Below the pieces are notes generated by a model. It searched no databases and was not told where the DNA came from. It saw only the letters and a program-made list of their open reading frames with translations. From Gammaproteobacteria bacterium (lineage in GTDB: Bacteria; Pseudomonadota; Gammaproteobacteria; DRLM01), in contig JAHFRV010000026.1 of NCBI GenBank assembly GCA_023266095.1, positions 1-42,061 on the forward strand: a stretch of 42,061 nucleotides of DNA, read 5' to 3'. The translations under genes and the position numbers were made by a program. Position 1 is the stretch's first letter. Each line of letters starts with the position of its first letter. Positions 1,328 to 14,210 of this stretch are shown in pieces.

Positions 1328-1509
1328 TTCAGGCGGCATGTACACCAAAATCGCCCTTCGTTGACACGTGGCCGCCTTTGGCGACGCCCAAACGAGGTTT
1401 TTGGGTATTTGCGAGTATGGAATTGGGTATCGAAACCAAAACTCACATAATCTCACACAATTTCACCTTAGGCCCTCGCACATCCAATCGACGGACGGTT
1501 GGTCGTGAT

Positions 1510-1893
1510 CCAGCGGCGACACGCTGGTCTGGTGTCCAGAGGGCACGAACGCCTTTTGGTCGTCTCCATGGGCGAAACTATGGTGCAGGGTCCACGGGCG
1601 GCATACGCCTTGGTCGTGGTTGATCGGCGAATACGATCACCATGGGCGGGTGTCGGGAGGGAGCTTGGAGGCTCCATCCTGACGAGTGGGTTTCAAGGGG
1701 CGCGATAGCCCCTGATCCTCCTGAAAGGAGCGATGGGTGCAGGGAGAGCCGAAGTCTCCCGCTCGTGGTCAAGCGGCGATACGCTTGATGGCGCGGTTCG
1801 GTTCGATGCCGGATGAGCGCCACGGGCCGGGAGGGATGCAACGGGAGGCGCGCAGCGGGCCTCCCTTGCCAAGGGGGCGTTGTACTACAACGC
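1510..1893. other. Tandem array of about 14 short hairpins, no protein (possible structured RNA)
   Basis: No convincing gene lies between 1285 and 2059. Instead, hairpins follow one another almost without gaps. Clear ones are 1510-1527 (6 bp, loop GCGACA), 1528-1540 (5 bp), 1566-1583 (6 bp with one G-T pair, loop GCGAAA), 1592-1619 (CCACG/CGTGG around GGCG/CGCC), 1621-1639 (6 bp, loop GCGAATA), 1656-1679 (8 of 9 bp), 1696-1713 (6 bp, loop GCGATA), 1718-1730 (5 bp), 1742-1760 (6 bp), 1769-1788 (7 bp, loop GCGATA), 1789-1822 (outer 6 bp), 1843-1865 (7 bp) and 1877-1893 (7 bp). Stem sequences differ while several loops share GCGA-like sequence. A phrase like GGTCGTG precedes several units (1501, 1558, 1612; similar at 1763). 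I do not recognise the class. The strand is not determined because the stems are symmetric. Confidence 0.6.
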
Positions 1894-2059
1894 ACACCTT
1901 GCGTAAGTCCGAATTGGTCAATCGGGTGCGTATTACAAAGAGCGCTCTGTATTACAAAATGACCCAAGCGGATAATGTTCGAACCCTGATTTGTGGATCG
2001 TTTTCATTCTCCGATTCTCATGCTCGTCTTAAAGCTGCGATGTGCGTTAGGGTGAAACC

Positions 2060-3684
2060 ATGCGCCCGAACGTGAATCAGAAGCTGCACCCTGCAAACGC
2101 CGTCATCTATGCGCGAGTCTCGTCCACCGCTCAGGTCCGCAAAGGGCAAGGGCTGGGATCGCAGGAAACCCGCTGCCGGGAATTCGCCCGCATGAAGGGC
2201 TATGAGGTTGATCGCGTCTTCGCTGATGAAGCCATCTCGGGCGGCATAACGACACGCCCCGGTATGCAGTCCATGCTCACCTACTTGGGTATGCACTCTG
2301 GCAAATGCAGCTTCGTTGTCATCATCGACGATATCAGCCGCCTTGCGCGGGATATCAAAGCCCATCTGGAATTGCGGGACGCCATCGCGTCAGTCGGCGC
2401 ACGCCTCGAAAGCCCGTCGATTGAGTTCGGCGAGGACAGCGACTCCATTCTCGTTGAAAACCTCCTCGCCAGCGTCAGCCAGCATCAACGGCAGAAGAAC
2501 GCGGAGCAAACCAAAAACCGGATGCGCGCCCGCGCCATGAACGGCTATTGGGTGTTCGGGGCTCCTCGGGGTCACGCGTATCTGCACAAACCCGGACAAG
2601 GCAAAATCTTGGTTAGGGACGAGCCGCTCGCCTCGATCATCACCAATGCGCTCGAAGGCTTCGCCTCAGGGCGGTTCGGCTCTCAGGTCGAAGTTAAACG
2701 CTTTCTCGAACGCCAGCCGGACTATCCGAAGGACTTGCCGAATGGCGAAATCCGCAATCAGCGCGTGGCGGAATTGCTGGCTCAGCCGCTCTATGCGGGG
2801 TATCTCGAATTGCCCCGCTGGGGAGTCACCTTCCGCAAGGCTCAGCATGAAGGGCTGATCTCGCTCGCCACCTTCGAGAAAATCCAAGAGCTTTTGCGCT
2901 CCGGGGCGAAAGCACCCGCCCGGAAGGACATTCGCTCGGACTTCCCTCTGCGCGGCCTTGTAGTCTGCTCTGACTGCGAAACGCCGCTAACGGCCTGCTG
3001 GTCCACGAGCAAAACGGGCGACAAGCATCCCTATTATCTCTGCCCCAAGAAAGGCTGCGCCAGCTATCGCAAATCCGTTCGTCGCACCGATCTCGAAGGG
3101 GACTTTGATGCTCTCATTGCGGGGATAGCCCCAGCCCCTCAAACCTTCGAGCGCTTCGTTGAAGAATTAGACGCCTTAGCAAAGGGCGCGACTGCGGATA
3201 GCGAAAACGTGCGGGCAGAGATCAGGGCGCGCTAAACGAGATCGAGACCCAAATCGAAACCCTTCTGGATCGCATCATGGAGGGCAAGAGCGAAACCCTT
3301 GTCTTCAGCTATGAGCGGCGTGTCGAAAAGCTCGAACGCGAAAAGCTGCTGCTGAACGAAAAACTCTGCGCTCATGCCAAGACACGCCAAAGACCATCGC
3401 AAGAGTTCGAACCCGCGCTCGGCTTTCTCAAAAACCCAATGAATCTGTGGCGTTCGGATGATCTCGCCCGCAAGCAAGCTGTGATGAAGATGCTTTTTGC
3501 CGAGCGTCCGGGCTACAAAAAGAAAATCGGCGTTCGAACCCCGATTTATGCCAGCCCTGTCAATGCACTAGCGGCAATCTCAGACGGGAAAAACGAAATG
3601 GCGCGCCCGGCGGGATTCGAACCCACGACCTTTGGCTTCGGAGGCCAACACTCTATCCAGCTGAGCTACGGGCGCGTTATTTGA
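2060..3684 (+). pseudogene. Large serine recombinase, split by a frameshift near 3230
   Basis: Site-specific integrase of the large serine recombinase family. The first frame (2060-3235, 391 residues) has the resolvase domain with YARVSS (nucleophile probably Ser21) and the DDISRLARD motif. It continues with the recombinase domain and a zinc-ribbon (CSDCETPL ... YYLCPKKGC), then stops abruptly at 3233-3235. The family's usual coiled coil continues in the next frame from about 3229 ([15 protein letters not shown], then [19 protein letters not shown]), reaching a stop at 3682-3684. A one-base indel near 3230 therefore separates two parts of one gene. The second part reads straight across the tRNA-Arg gene on the other strand. 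It is probably inactive unless a programmed frameshift or a split, reassembling protein rescues it; I see no strong slippery heptamer at the break. Confidence 0.85.
3599..3675 (-). tRNA. tRNA-Arg (anticodon CCG)
   Basis: The reverse complement folds as a full tRNA of 77 bases. The acceptor GCGCCCG pairs with CGGGCGC, the anticodon loop CTCCGAA sits between TTGGC and GCCAA, the T arm holds GTTCGAATC, and the CCA end is encoded (3601-3599). The anticodon CCG reads CGG (Arg). Its 3' end faces the recombinase element, as expected for an integration site within or beside a tRNA. Confidence 0.95.
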
Positions 3685-5425: not shown

Positions 5426-6226
5426 TCAACCCTCGGCCGCCAACTTCGCGCGGAAGGCCTCGGTCGCGGCCCGCGCGGCGATGATCGCCGCCAGGTTTTG
5501 CGCGTATCCCTTGCCGAGCGGGATGTCGTAGGTGATGGTGGCGCCGTAGGCGTCGGGGGCTTGTGGATCGCGGCGTACCTTGTCGAAGGTCAGCACCCGG
5601 GTGCCGAGTTCGAAAGCCTCTTTGATATCGTGGGTGACCATGAAGATCATCATTTGATTTTCCCGCCACAGATCCAAAATCAGTTCGTGCATGTCGGCGC
5701 GGATGCCGGGGTCGAGGGCGCCGAAGGGTTCGTCGAGGAGCAGGATCTTGGGTTGTTTCACCAGGGCCTGGGCGATGGAAAGGCGTTGCTGCATGCCGCC
5801 CGACAGCATGGCGGGATATTTGTGGCGCGCCTCGAACAGGCCGACCGCCCGCAGCGTGGCCTCCGCCTGGGTTATGGCGCGCCGCCGCGCGGCGCCGAAC
5901 AAACGACCGAGCAGCGGCGAGTCTTGCAGTTCCAGGCCGAGCAGCACGTTACCCAGCACGGTCAAATGCGGGAACACCGAATAACGCTGAAAGACGATGC
6001 CGCGATCGGGGCCCGGCTCGGCGGGCAGCGGTGTGCCGTTGAGCAGCAGTTCGCCGCGGCTGAGTGTCTCCTGTCCCAGCAATAAACGCAGAAAGGTGCT
6101 TTTGCCGCAACCGGAAGCGCCGACGATGGTGCAGAATTCCGGACTGCTGACCTTGAGGTTGATCCGTTCGAGGATCACCTGACCCTGGTATTCCTTCCGA
6201 AGATTTTTGATGTGCAGCGTATTCAT
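5426..6226 (-). CDS. ABC transporter ATP-binding protein of the predicted guanidine importer
   Basis: A 266-residue ATPase of the nitrate/sulfonate/taurine (SsuB/TauB) type. Walker A is GASGCGKST, the signature LSGGMQQR, Walker B ILLLDEPFGALD, and the switch His is in MVTHD. The start chosen is MNTLHIKNL at 6226, two bases after the permease stop; a longer in-frame start would overlap the permease by 85 bases and add a non-ABC leader. It should energise import through the membrane permease encoded just upstream. Sequence alone would allow a taurine- or nitrate-type substrate. The guanidine-I riboswitch heading the transcript is what points to guanidine. It is the last gene of its operon. Confidence 0.88.
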   Translation of the reverse strand: MNTLHIKNLRKEYQGQVILERINLKVSSPEFCTIVGASGCGKSTFLRLLLGQETLSRGELLLNGTPLPAEPGPDRGIVFQRYSVFPHLTVLGNVLLGLELQDSPLLGRLFGAARRRAITQAEATLRAVGLFEARHKYPAMLSGGMQQRLSIAQALVKQPKILLLDEPFGALDPGIRADMHELILDLWRENQMMIFMVTHDIKEAFELGTRVLTFDKVRRDPQAPDAYGATITYDIPLGKGYAQNLAAIIAARAATEAFRAKLAAEG

Positions 6227-6228
6227 GC

Positions 6229-7041
6229 TTACGTTTTTGCCGCCCACGGAAACAGCCGGCGCGACAACACCCGCAATAGATAATCCGACAAAAAGGCCAG
6301 CAGGGTGATCCACGCCACATAGGGCAGGATGGTGTCCATGGCCAGATAGCGGCGCAACAAAAAGATCCGGTAACCGAGGCCGCTTTCAGCGGCGATGGCC
6401 TCGGCGGCGATCAGAAACAACCAGGCCGAGCCCAACGTTAAACGCACCGCGTTGAGCAAACGGGGCAGGAGTTGCGGTAACACTACCCGCCAGATTACCT
6501 GCCAGGTGGAGGCGCCGAGGGTCTGGGCCTTGATGAGCTGTTCGTGCGGTATATCGATCACCCGCAGGTGCAGCTCGCGCATGATGCTGGGCGCGACGCC
6601 GAGTATGATCAGCATGATCTTCGACAACTCGCCCAAGCCGAAGAGGATGAACAGAATCGGCAGGATGGCGAGCGGCGGGATCATCGACAACACCGCGATC
6701 AACGGCGAGAGCCCGGCGTTGAAATAGGGAATCACGCCGGTGGCGATGCCGAACATCAAACCCAGCAGGGCGCTGATCGCCACCGCCAGCAGCAGGCGCT
6801 GCAAACTGGCGGCGGTGTCGGACCACAATTGAATTTCGCCGGTGCGGCGGTTGGGTTCCAAGGCCGCTTGCACTATCGCTTCCTTGAAGCTGCCCAGCGA
6901 CGGCAGTAGCTTGTCGTTGGGATTGTCGGCAAGACGCAGATCGGATGCGGTGAGATACACGATGATGATCAGCAGGAAAGGCAGCGCGCTGAGGCACAGC
7001 GCGCTGAAACGTCCCGGCTGCTGATTGAGCAAACGGCGCAT
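6229..7041 (-). CDS. ABC transporter permease of the predicted guanidine importer
   Basis: A 270-residue inner-membrane permease of the binding-protein-dependent (TauC/SsuC-like) family with about six hydrophobic segments. The coupling-loop motif for the ATPase is near residues 165-190 (AQTLGASTWQVIWRVVLPQL), the classic EAA-like loop. It lies three bases downstream of the binding-protein stop and two bases before the ATPase start, so the three genes are one tight operon. The family fits small organic solutes. The riboswitch upstream of the operon and the divergent guanidine hydrolase suggest guanidinium as cargo. That is inference from context. Confidence 0.88.
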   Translation of the reverse strand: MRRLLNQQPGRFSALCLSALPFLLIIIVYLTASDLRLADNPNDKLLPSLGSFKEAIVQAALEPNRRTGEIQLWSDTAASLQRLLLAVAISALLGLMFGIATGVIPYFNAGLSPLIAVLSMIPPLAILPILFILFGLGELSKIMLIILGVAPSIMRELHLRVIDIPHEQLIKAQTLGASTWQVIWRVVLPQLLPRLLNAVRLTLGSAWLFLIAAEAIAAESGLGYRIFLLRRYLAMDTILPYVAWITLLAFLSDYLLRVLSRRLFPWAAKT

Positions 7042-8201: not shown

Positions 8202-8345
8202 ACGAGGCGGCCCGGCGGTTGCATGACGCAATACCGCGGCACTTCCTCCCGGGCTTTTGTCCCGCCGTGTATCCGGCCCTATCAGGAGACGGACTGCATC
8301 CCTCGGACCAGTCGCCTCGTTTGCGCGAGGCCGGAACCCTAGATG
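8202..8345 (-). promoter_or_regulatory. Guanidine-I riboswitch (ykkC) ahead of the importer operon
   Basis: On the minus strand the aptamer reads CTAGGGTTCCGG from 8342 down, then a hairpin (CCTCG/CGAGG), CTGGTCCGAGGG, ACACGG, and the 3' block CGGGACAAAAGCCCGGGAGG ending near 8245. These blocks in this order are the hallmark of the guanidine-I class. After the aptamer, CGCCTCGT (plus-strand 8209-8202) is fully complementary to ACGAGGCG inside the aptamer (plus-strand 8320-8313). This pairing could form the ligand-free alternative structure. No poly-U terminator is seen before the start codon at 8124. Confidence 0.93.
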
Positions 8346-8358
8346 CTGTGATGCACGG

Positions 8359-8755: not shown

Positions 8756-8816
8756 CTATGTTTAGCGAGTCCGAGGGTTGCGGCCGTATCGATGCGGCGG
8801 CACCTCGTTATGACAA

Positions 8817-8909
8817 CTAGGGTTCCGGTTCGGTGACGAATGCTGGTCCGAGGGTTGTCGGCCTCCACGGGGAGGTTACACGGCGGGATAAAAGCCCGGG
8901 AGATTCGTC
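8817..8909 (+). promoter_or_regulatory. Guanidine-I riboswitch (ykkC) ahead of guanidine hydrolase
   Basis: The aptamer blocks occur in order: CTAGGGTTCCGG (8817-8828), CTGGTCCGAGGG (8843-8854), hairpin CCTCC/GGAGG (8862-8875), TTACACGG, and CGGGATAAAAGCCCGGGAGA (8884-8903). GACGAAT at 8835-8841, just before the GGTCCGAG block, is complementary to ATTCGTC at 8903-8909 just after the aptamer, a candidate switching helix. No poly-U run follows, so control could be translational or by another termination mode. Confidence 0.95.

Positions 8910-12051: not shown

Positions 12052-12055
<4 letters not shown>
11738..12055 (+). CDS. ureB: Urease beta subunit
   Basis: A 105-residue structural subunit of urease. 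The start at 11738 gives the classical N-terminus MIPGEI and has GGAGGA at 11725-11730. A start at 11711 overlapping the ureA stop would add nine unusual residues and is less likely. Family features are [17 protein letters not shown] and [16 protein letters not shown]. The stop overlaps the ureC start by four bases, indicating translational coupling. Confidence 0.96.
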
Positions 12056-13755
<1,700 letters not shown>

Positions 13756-13781: not shown

Positions 13782-14210
13782 ATGTTGCATATCACCGAAC
13801 GTATCGCCGACCCCATTCCCTGCAATACCTCGCTAACCCTGCCCTTCGACTTGCGGCAGAAAAGCCGCCAGCGGGTGCGCTTGGACGACGGTCGCGAAGC
13901 TGCCTTGATATTGCCGCGCGGCGTGGTGTTGCGCGGCGGCGATAGCTTGCGTGCCGACGGCGGCGAGTTGATCGCGGTGCGTGCCGCGATTGAAGCGGTG
14001 TCCATCGCGTCCAGCGACGATGCCCGGTTGTTGGCCCGCGCCGCTTATCACCTGGGTAACCGCCATGTACCGGTGCAGGTGGGCGCGGGCTGGTTGCGTT
14101 ACGGCCGCGACCACGTGCTGGATGACATGTTGCACGGTCTGGGTTTGAGCGTGCGGCATGAGGAATCGCCCTTCGAACCGGAGTCCGGCGCCTATCAACA
14201 TGGACACTGA
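13782..14210 (+). CDS. ureE: Urease accessory protein UreE (nickel chaperone)
   Basis: A 142-residue nickel-binding chaperone that donates nickel to UreG and then urease. The start at 13782 (MLHITERI) is the usual N-terminus; the frame also opens at a TTG at 13752 inside the ureC end, which is unlikely. The C-terminal domain carries the metal-site segment HLGNRHVPVQV and LDDMLHGLGL. The tail is short with only two histidines (YQHGH), not a long His-rich tail, so nickel storage is probably minor. It overlaps ureF by 11 bases. Confidence 0.94.
   Translation: MLHITERIADPIPCNTSLTLPFDLRQKSRQRVRLDDGREAALILPRGVVLRGGDSLRADGGELIAVRAAIEAVSIASSDDARLLARAAYHLGNRHVPVQVGAGWLRYGRDHVLDDMLHGLGLSVRHEESPFEPESGAYQHGH

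Follow-up and report, generated by a model that had tools for sequence, protein, structure and literature searches.

A hairpin array directly upstream of a likely origin of transfer in an integrated element of a gammaproteobacterium

The window analysed here, i.e., the whole stretch of 42,061 nucleotides, is one entire contig (JAHFRV010000026.1) of the draft genome of a Gammaproteobacteria bacterium (G000, 110 contigs). At the locus under study, a Fic gene, an array of hairpins, a conserved core and a large serine recombinase gene follow each other, up to a tRNA gene:

190–1284 (−): Fic protein of the SoFic type, cargo (Pfam Fic_N, Fic and SoFic-like_C)
1484–1825 (+): modular hairpin array with 12 predicted hairpins (folding, shuffles and modules recurring at other loci)
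1516–1521 (+): GCGACA loop
1572–1577 (+): GCGAAA loop
1627–1633 (+): GCGAATA loop
1702–1707 (+): GCGATA loop
1776 onwards (+): second GCGATA loop
1762–1825 (+): conserved 3' end of the array (23-sequence alignment A6, covariation)
1826–1905 (+): core, proposed origin of transfer (oriT), model R1 (homologous copies and covariation)
1838–1869 (+): core hairpin A, GCAACGGGAGGC..GCCTCCCTTGC, with apical GCGCAGC
1870–1901 (+): core hairpin B, the nick-proximal inverted repeat, CAAGG-N-GCGTTGTACTACAACGC-N-CCTTG
1901/1902 (+): putative nick between CTTG and C (inferred from the end of conservation and the MOBP consensus)
2060–3235 (+): large serine recombinase, N-terminal part, interrupted by a frameshift (Pfam Resolvase, Recombinase and Zn_ribbon_recom)
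3277–3684 (+): second open frame of the interrupted recombinase (falls in the recombinase cluster by neighbour clustering)
3599–3675 (−): tRNA-Arg(CCG), probable integration target and right end of the element

An earlier note, made from the letters alone, had placed an array of hairpins at 1510–1893, between the Fic and recombinase genes of an integrated element. The flanking genes are indeed those two, and integration agrees with both the Pfam domains of the recombinase and the tRNA-Arg arrangement common to relatives. For the Fic gene, the NCBIfam score lies below the cut-off, SoFic being the PADLOC entry. Since a tRNA-Arg gene also stands behind the recombinase in three other loci (L002, L003 and L093), an element integrated at tRNA-Arg appears to have its right end here, its left end lying outside the contig. 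The recombinase itself (2060–3684, +) is split into two frames of 391 and 135 amino acids in the window and forms a single frame of 525–539 amino acids in the relatives, which suggests that the window copy is either decayed or affected by an assembly error. Elsewhere in the window, Rfam models identified two guanidine-I riboswitches pointing apart (8244–8353, −, 86.6 bits; 8806–8904, +, 83.2 bits), as well as a strong match to 5_ureB_sRNA (12204–12487, −, 141 bits) lying antisense to a 567-aa open reading frame (12052–13755); conserved urease coding sequence alone may account for the latter match.

The feature turned out to be a little longer than first described, extending over about 1484–1905. 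The earlier count of about 14 stems is borne out by folding: 14 hairpin loops are predicted in 1470–1910, 13 of them inside 1510–1893, compared to 8.46 ± 1.65 hairpins (maximum 12) in 100 mononucleotide shuffles of the same stretch. With RNA folding parameters, the plus strand of 1470–1910 reaches −223.8 kcal/mol (z = −5.44), a value attained by none of the 100 shuffles, and the minus strand has z = −3.27; with DNA folding parameters, 1490–1905 yields z = −6.54 (+) and −4.41 (−). The stems of the array (1484–1825) are about 6–9 bp long and its loops mostly 5–7 nt, with a recurrent GCGA-nA type, and linkers such as GGTCGTGG, GAGTGGGT and TCGATGGGT connect one hairpin to the next. As had been noticed, the GCGA-type loops return every 55–75 bases (starts at 1516, 1572, 1627, 1702 and 1776), and GGTCGTG-like sequences leading the hairpins are present in the window. 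The conserved 3' end (1762–1825) consists of a GCGATA-loop hairpin, followed by a TGGCGC/GCGCCA stem enclosing a hairpin with the loop TCGAT.

Homologous copies exist in other genomes. When 1480–2060 was compared to plasmids with blastn, unannotated intergenic matches were obtained in Rhizobium, Tritonibacter, Devosia, Bradyrhizobium and Frigidibacter. Three relatives among metagenome-assembled genomes, retrieved through their recombinase (90–93% identical at the protein level), are 86–89% identical at the DNA level from window position 1678 to the recombinase gene, and differ further left in both hairpins and cargo. All of these loci share a 3' core of the form GGGATGCAACGGG-stem-GCGCAGCG-stem-CCCTTGCCAAG-hairpin-CATCTTGC, the alignment of which (A1) served to build the covariance model R1. 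Searches with R1 returned 60 matches, of which 59 were analysed, an overlapping match on the opposite strand of L107 being left out. These 59 copies come from 57 loci (L099 and L100 contribute two each) and take in the close relatives, i.e., the window, L002, L003 and L093 (L004 is the contig of L093 and was counted once). They are mainly alphaproteobacterial, and each of them ends in a conserved core of about 80 nt. R1 matches occur in 16 of 398 Pseudomonadota genomes and in 23 of 385 genomes of the class of G391, some genomes having two or three copies; because that class belongs to the same phylum as the window genome without being its own, near-identical copies are found in different classes. 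The window genome has a single copy and is the only one of 56 genomes of close relatives to carry the feature; E. coli gave no match to it, and phages no real one, seven phage records showing short chance matches.

Several loci depart from the usual arrangement. L100 bears two inverted cores 1.5 kb apart in one genome (9046–9120, +; 10585–10659, −), and L099 two direct cores 7.5 kb apart (6405–6477, +; 13889–13962, +) with the same gene families between them, possibly reflecting tandem elements or recombination between two origins of transfer. In L107 (10033–10128), R1 matches overlap on both strands, which indicates that the core is nearly palindromic. Finally, the hairpin array of a Bradyrhizobium plasmid (L036, about 5870–6220) comes with no core match and may be a decayed copy.

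About half of the 59 copies carry a modular hairpin array immediately 5' of the core. In the 500 nt upstream of the core, hairpin-paired bases amount to at least 10% in 34 of the 59 copies; over the same length downstream, 10 of 59 reach this level, and shuffled sequences are 3–7% paired. Some 25 copies show no clear array, which implies that the array is dispensable for whatever the core does. The 35 array-bearing copies contain 172 stems of at least 6 bp, compared to 37 in shuffled sequences and 58 downstream, although this stem count is biased, since the 35 loci were picked by eye among the 59. Hexaloops make up 82 of the 172 loops, the commonest being GCGATA (12), GCGAAG (8) and GCGAAA (8). 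Hairpin modules have been gained, lost and swapped between relatives, so that the function seems to require many hairpins rather than one exact fold. In all array-bearing copies, the polarity of the array is that of the core and is fixed relative to the putative nick.

The earlier note had read stem variation combined with loop constancy as the product of selection on structure, and the homologues subsequently found show the corresponding covariation. In the core alignment of 59 distinct rows (from the 60 matches) fitted to R1, two-sided changes affect 18 of 23 pairs (182 cells vs. 49 after shuffling), with a covariation of 0.362 compared to 0.132 for shuffled data and at most 0.067 when partners are slid. 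An unfitted MAFFT alignment of 11 core sequences gives 8 of 23 two-sided pairs and a covariation of 0.239 (shuffled: 0.109). Core helices 2–4, which form the inverted repeat, are paired in 96–99% of cells and show two-sided changes. For the 3' end of the array, the MAFFT alignment A6, which comprises 23 of the 29 array stretches listed, has two-sided changes in 11 of 16 pairs and a covariation of 0.419 (shuffled: 0.146), and RNAalifold recovered the same helices unguided.

The two strands can be told apart by their mismatches. G.T outnumbers A.C in the stems of both the array (25 vs. 6, p = 0.0009) and the core (23 vs. 6, p = 0.002), a ratio that, for the array, is independent of the choice of loci, and this excess designates the plus strand as the structured one. 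Two further indicators were tried and set aside. The rate of G.T per Watson–Crick pair (array: 0.021; core: 0.019) does not separate single-stranded DNA from RNA, as shown by reference values of 0.043 for 23 tRNAs and 0.012 for 117 terminator-like hairpins. Likewise, GNA and GNNA loops closed by C-G form extra-stable mini-hairpins in DNA, and the apical loop of core hairpin A is GNA in 38 and GNNA in six of the 59 cores, but 15 cores fit neither; in the array, GCGNNAGC occurs 20 times on its own strand (11 expected) and 17 times on the opposite one, so that its enrichment is not clear.

The end of the core points to its likely function. The usual anatomy of an oriT comprises an inverted repeat and, behind it, a short motif that marks the limit of conservation, and the core closes precisely with its inverted repeat, then CACATCTTG and a C or T, where conservation stops. 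Across the 59 copies, the terminal CAC-A-Y-CTTG has its G in all 59, followed by C in 52, T in six and A in one, then by G or A, and by nothing fixed beyond. The nick consensus of the MOBP family is (C/T)ATCCTG(C/T), located beside an upstream inverted repeat, as given in an excerpt of PMC3772185. The core motif CATCTTG(C/T) is one transition away from this consensus and fits its flanking pyrimidines, although the exact ATCCTG occurs in none of the 59 cores, and an inverted repeat lies directly 5' of it. MOBP origins of the IncP/IncI type, such as those of RP4 and Helicobacter tfs4, similarly have an inverted repeat immediately 5' of the nick motif, which for them and the core taken together reads (C/T)ATC(C/T)TG(C/T), and adjoin genes for NikA/MobC-like proteins and MobA/VirD2-type relaxases. 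The core differs from them by ATCTTG instead of ATCCTG and by a second conserved hairpin (A), and about half of its copies carry in addition the array, with up to a dozen covarying hairpins. We know of no oriT with such an array, and our search of openly available journal papers yielded, among the entries listed, no description of either this oriT or the array; with CATCTTGC and oriT as query, only unrelated papers were among the matches listed.

The gene neighbourhood is consistent with this anatomy. Within 9 kb of the 59 copies, genes called by a crude longest-ORF method include one serine recombinase cluster at 35 loci, a type IV secretion coupling protein (PF02534) at 21 loci and a MobA/VirD2-type relaxase (PF03432) at 11 loci, while NikA-like proteins are among the nearest left-hand genes. 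Mobilization genes are expected to read away from an oriT, and in the six loci with a relaxase within about 1.5 kb (L037, L102, L107, L108, L112 and L129), the relaxase gene is always found on the minus strand to the left of the core and reads away from it; the same divergent arrangement holds for both copies of G537, which brings the adjacent divergent pairs to eight altogether. On pcai42B, a 19-kb Frigidibacter plasmid typed as MOBP in PLSDB, the core (5999–6077) and its array sit between mobC/relaxase and the coupling-protein gene.

To compare distributions, a profile of nine core-neighbour relaxases (A5) and R1 (threshold E ≤ 0.001) were searched in the same 190 genomes, of which 14 have the core, 16 the relaxase and 11 both (Fisher p = 6.8e-12). 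Without the four genomes from which A5 was drawn, seven have both, three the core only, five the relaxase only and 171 neither (p = 6.5e-8). In most double-positive genomes, core and relaxase share a contig, being adjacent or 4–19 kb apart, so that at several loci the relaxase is not an immediate neighbour; they are on separate contigs in G569, G452 and G332, and in G580 the relaxase is on the opposite side of the core. The association has exceptions in both directions, with three of the 14 core-positive genomes lacking the A5 relaxase and four or five of the 16 relaxase-positive ones lacking the core. One of the latter, G070, was not scored as core-positive but has a hairpin-CACATCTTGC with a weak R1 match about 9.4 kb downstream of its relaxase. 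A search of the window genome found no match to PF03432, which implies that its element would depend on the relaxase of a helper.

The earlier note had considered the array as an RNA class, with recombination structure as a bracketed alternative. The folded single strand under selection stands, but its assignment to RNA fares less well, and the bracketed alternative proved the nearer of the two. If the plus strand were transcribed into a structured non-coding RNA of about 400 nt that served the element through control of transfer genes, sequestration of a protein by the GCGA hairpins or counter-defence, this would account for the strong plus-strand fold, the covariation, the excess of G.T over A.C and the loops recurring across the 35 arrays examined. 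Large structured bacterial RNAs known from Rfam are moreover of similar size, with many stems, covariation and a mobile-element context. Unlike them, the feature has no Rfam match at gathering score, in line with the earlier statement that it matched no recognised RNA class (Rfam 15 searched at E values up to 10 gave only two matches, both far below cut-offs), and it ends at a nick-like motif. No terminator-like site is found in 1200–2100, where a single weak promoter-like site was detected (1278–1307), the association is with relaxase genes, and the core also occurs without any array. We thus regard such an RNA as unlikely, although the region may have some RNA role in addition. Another lead, the DUF3800-associated RNA motifs, was followed because of a DUF3800 gene near the Rhizobium copy L032, and was dropped after no supporting paper and no Rfam match were found. 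The MOBP-like nick motif at the end of the core, the mobilization genes beside it and its co-occurrence with a relaxase all indicate that the strand which folds is more probably transferred single-stranded DNA.

Other explanations leave the oriT aside or give the array another part. If the core were an oriT and the array a recombination boundary, its hairpins could assist relaxase-driven or homologous exchange of the left cargo; this would suit the window, L002, L003 and L004, in which similarity ends inside the array around 1678 and the cargo beyond differs, along with the varied and often defence-type genes left of the array elsewhere. Nonetheless, module order is similar in distant loci (e.g., the last two modules beside the core in 23 sequences), which argues for a common function instead of passive breakage, and we consider such a hot spot improbable. 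The serine recombinase might have its attachment site or a regulatory leader here, as suggested by the start of its gene 155 nt past the core in the window, L002, L003 and L093, but 24 of the 59 copies have no such recombinase within 9 kb and elsewhere it lies up to 8 kb off, on either strand; besides, an attachment site would be split by integration, yet the core is intact in integrated elements, and the end of the element is at the tRNA-Arg and not at the core. We therefore reject this possibility as very improbable. Selfish repeats of the REP/BIME kind, functionless for the element, would equally consist of many short hairpins varying in number between relatives, a proposal that we reject with similar assurance in view of the single copy in the window genome, the polarity and position relative to the core conserved in all copies, and the two-sided changes. 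Lastly, open reading frames of 108, 129 and 112 amino acids overlap the feature on this G+C-rich strand, but none of the three has a Pfam match above cut-off, so that the search for a protein alignment through the region came back empty, and the relatives differ by whole hairpins and indels; a coding region can be dismissed with near certainty.

Altogether, an integrative and mobilizable element probably has its origin of transfer in this feature, with the array on the transferred strand just 5' of the nick. Both the array and the core form their folds on the plus strand when single-stranded, and compensatory change has preserved these folds. The core (1826–1905) would act as an oriT of the MOBP kind, as its anatomy and neighbours suggest: a relaxase supplied in trans would attach to the hairpin next to the nick and cut the plus strand after CTTG, at about 1901/1902, the plus strand thereby being the transferred one, so that the recombinase side would enter first and the array last. 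Owing to its place directly 5' of the nick, the array should be single-stranded and folded only near the end of transfer or of rolling-circle displacement. It might then operate like a single-strand origin (sso), loading the host primase or RNA polymerase for synthesis of the second strand, or alternatively provide the relaxosome with a structure on which to dock and terminate. According to an excerpt of PMC4595007, the sso of rolling-circle plasmids likewise consists of several stem-loops on one strand, is orientation-specific and lies upstream of the nick in most of these plasmids, where it is likewise exposed last, sso1 of ICEBs1 being downstream of oriT. The array differs from these in having many more hairpins, in variable number.

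Defence-type functions recur next to the array. Among the nearest left-hand genes (53 of 56 scanned after duplicates were left out), Pfam identifies Fic in four, as well as restriction or helicase proteins, ArdA and STAND NTPases, and PADLOC adds SoFic, Hma (HamB), HerA and Mads-like models for this left-hand set; on the right (54 of 58 genes), resolvases lead with five of 54. This suggests that the elements often carry defence genes.

It is conceivable, although we hold this only tentatively, that the family represents a new single-stranded DNA element of conjugation in Alphaproteobacteria, in which a modular and freely extendable hairpin array at the trailing end of the strand being transferred is combined with a new family of oriT, used in trans by integrative elements that lack a relaxase and carry defence genes. 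Such an element would start the second strand, or provide the entering strand with its first promoters, only once transfer is complete. To our knowledge, most integrative and mobilizable elements go unrecognised because their origins of transfer are unknown. As its copies often lie in relaxase-less elements beside defence genes, R1 would be a marker for the movement of defence islands, including between classes. For a structure on a transferred strand, the array would be unusually elaborate, and it makes the start of second-strand synthesis in integrative elements of Gram-negative bacteria, whether conjugative or mobilizable, a testable question.
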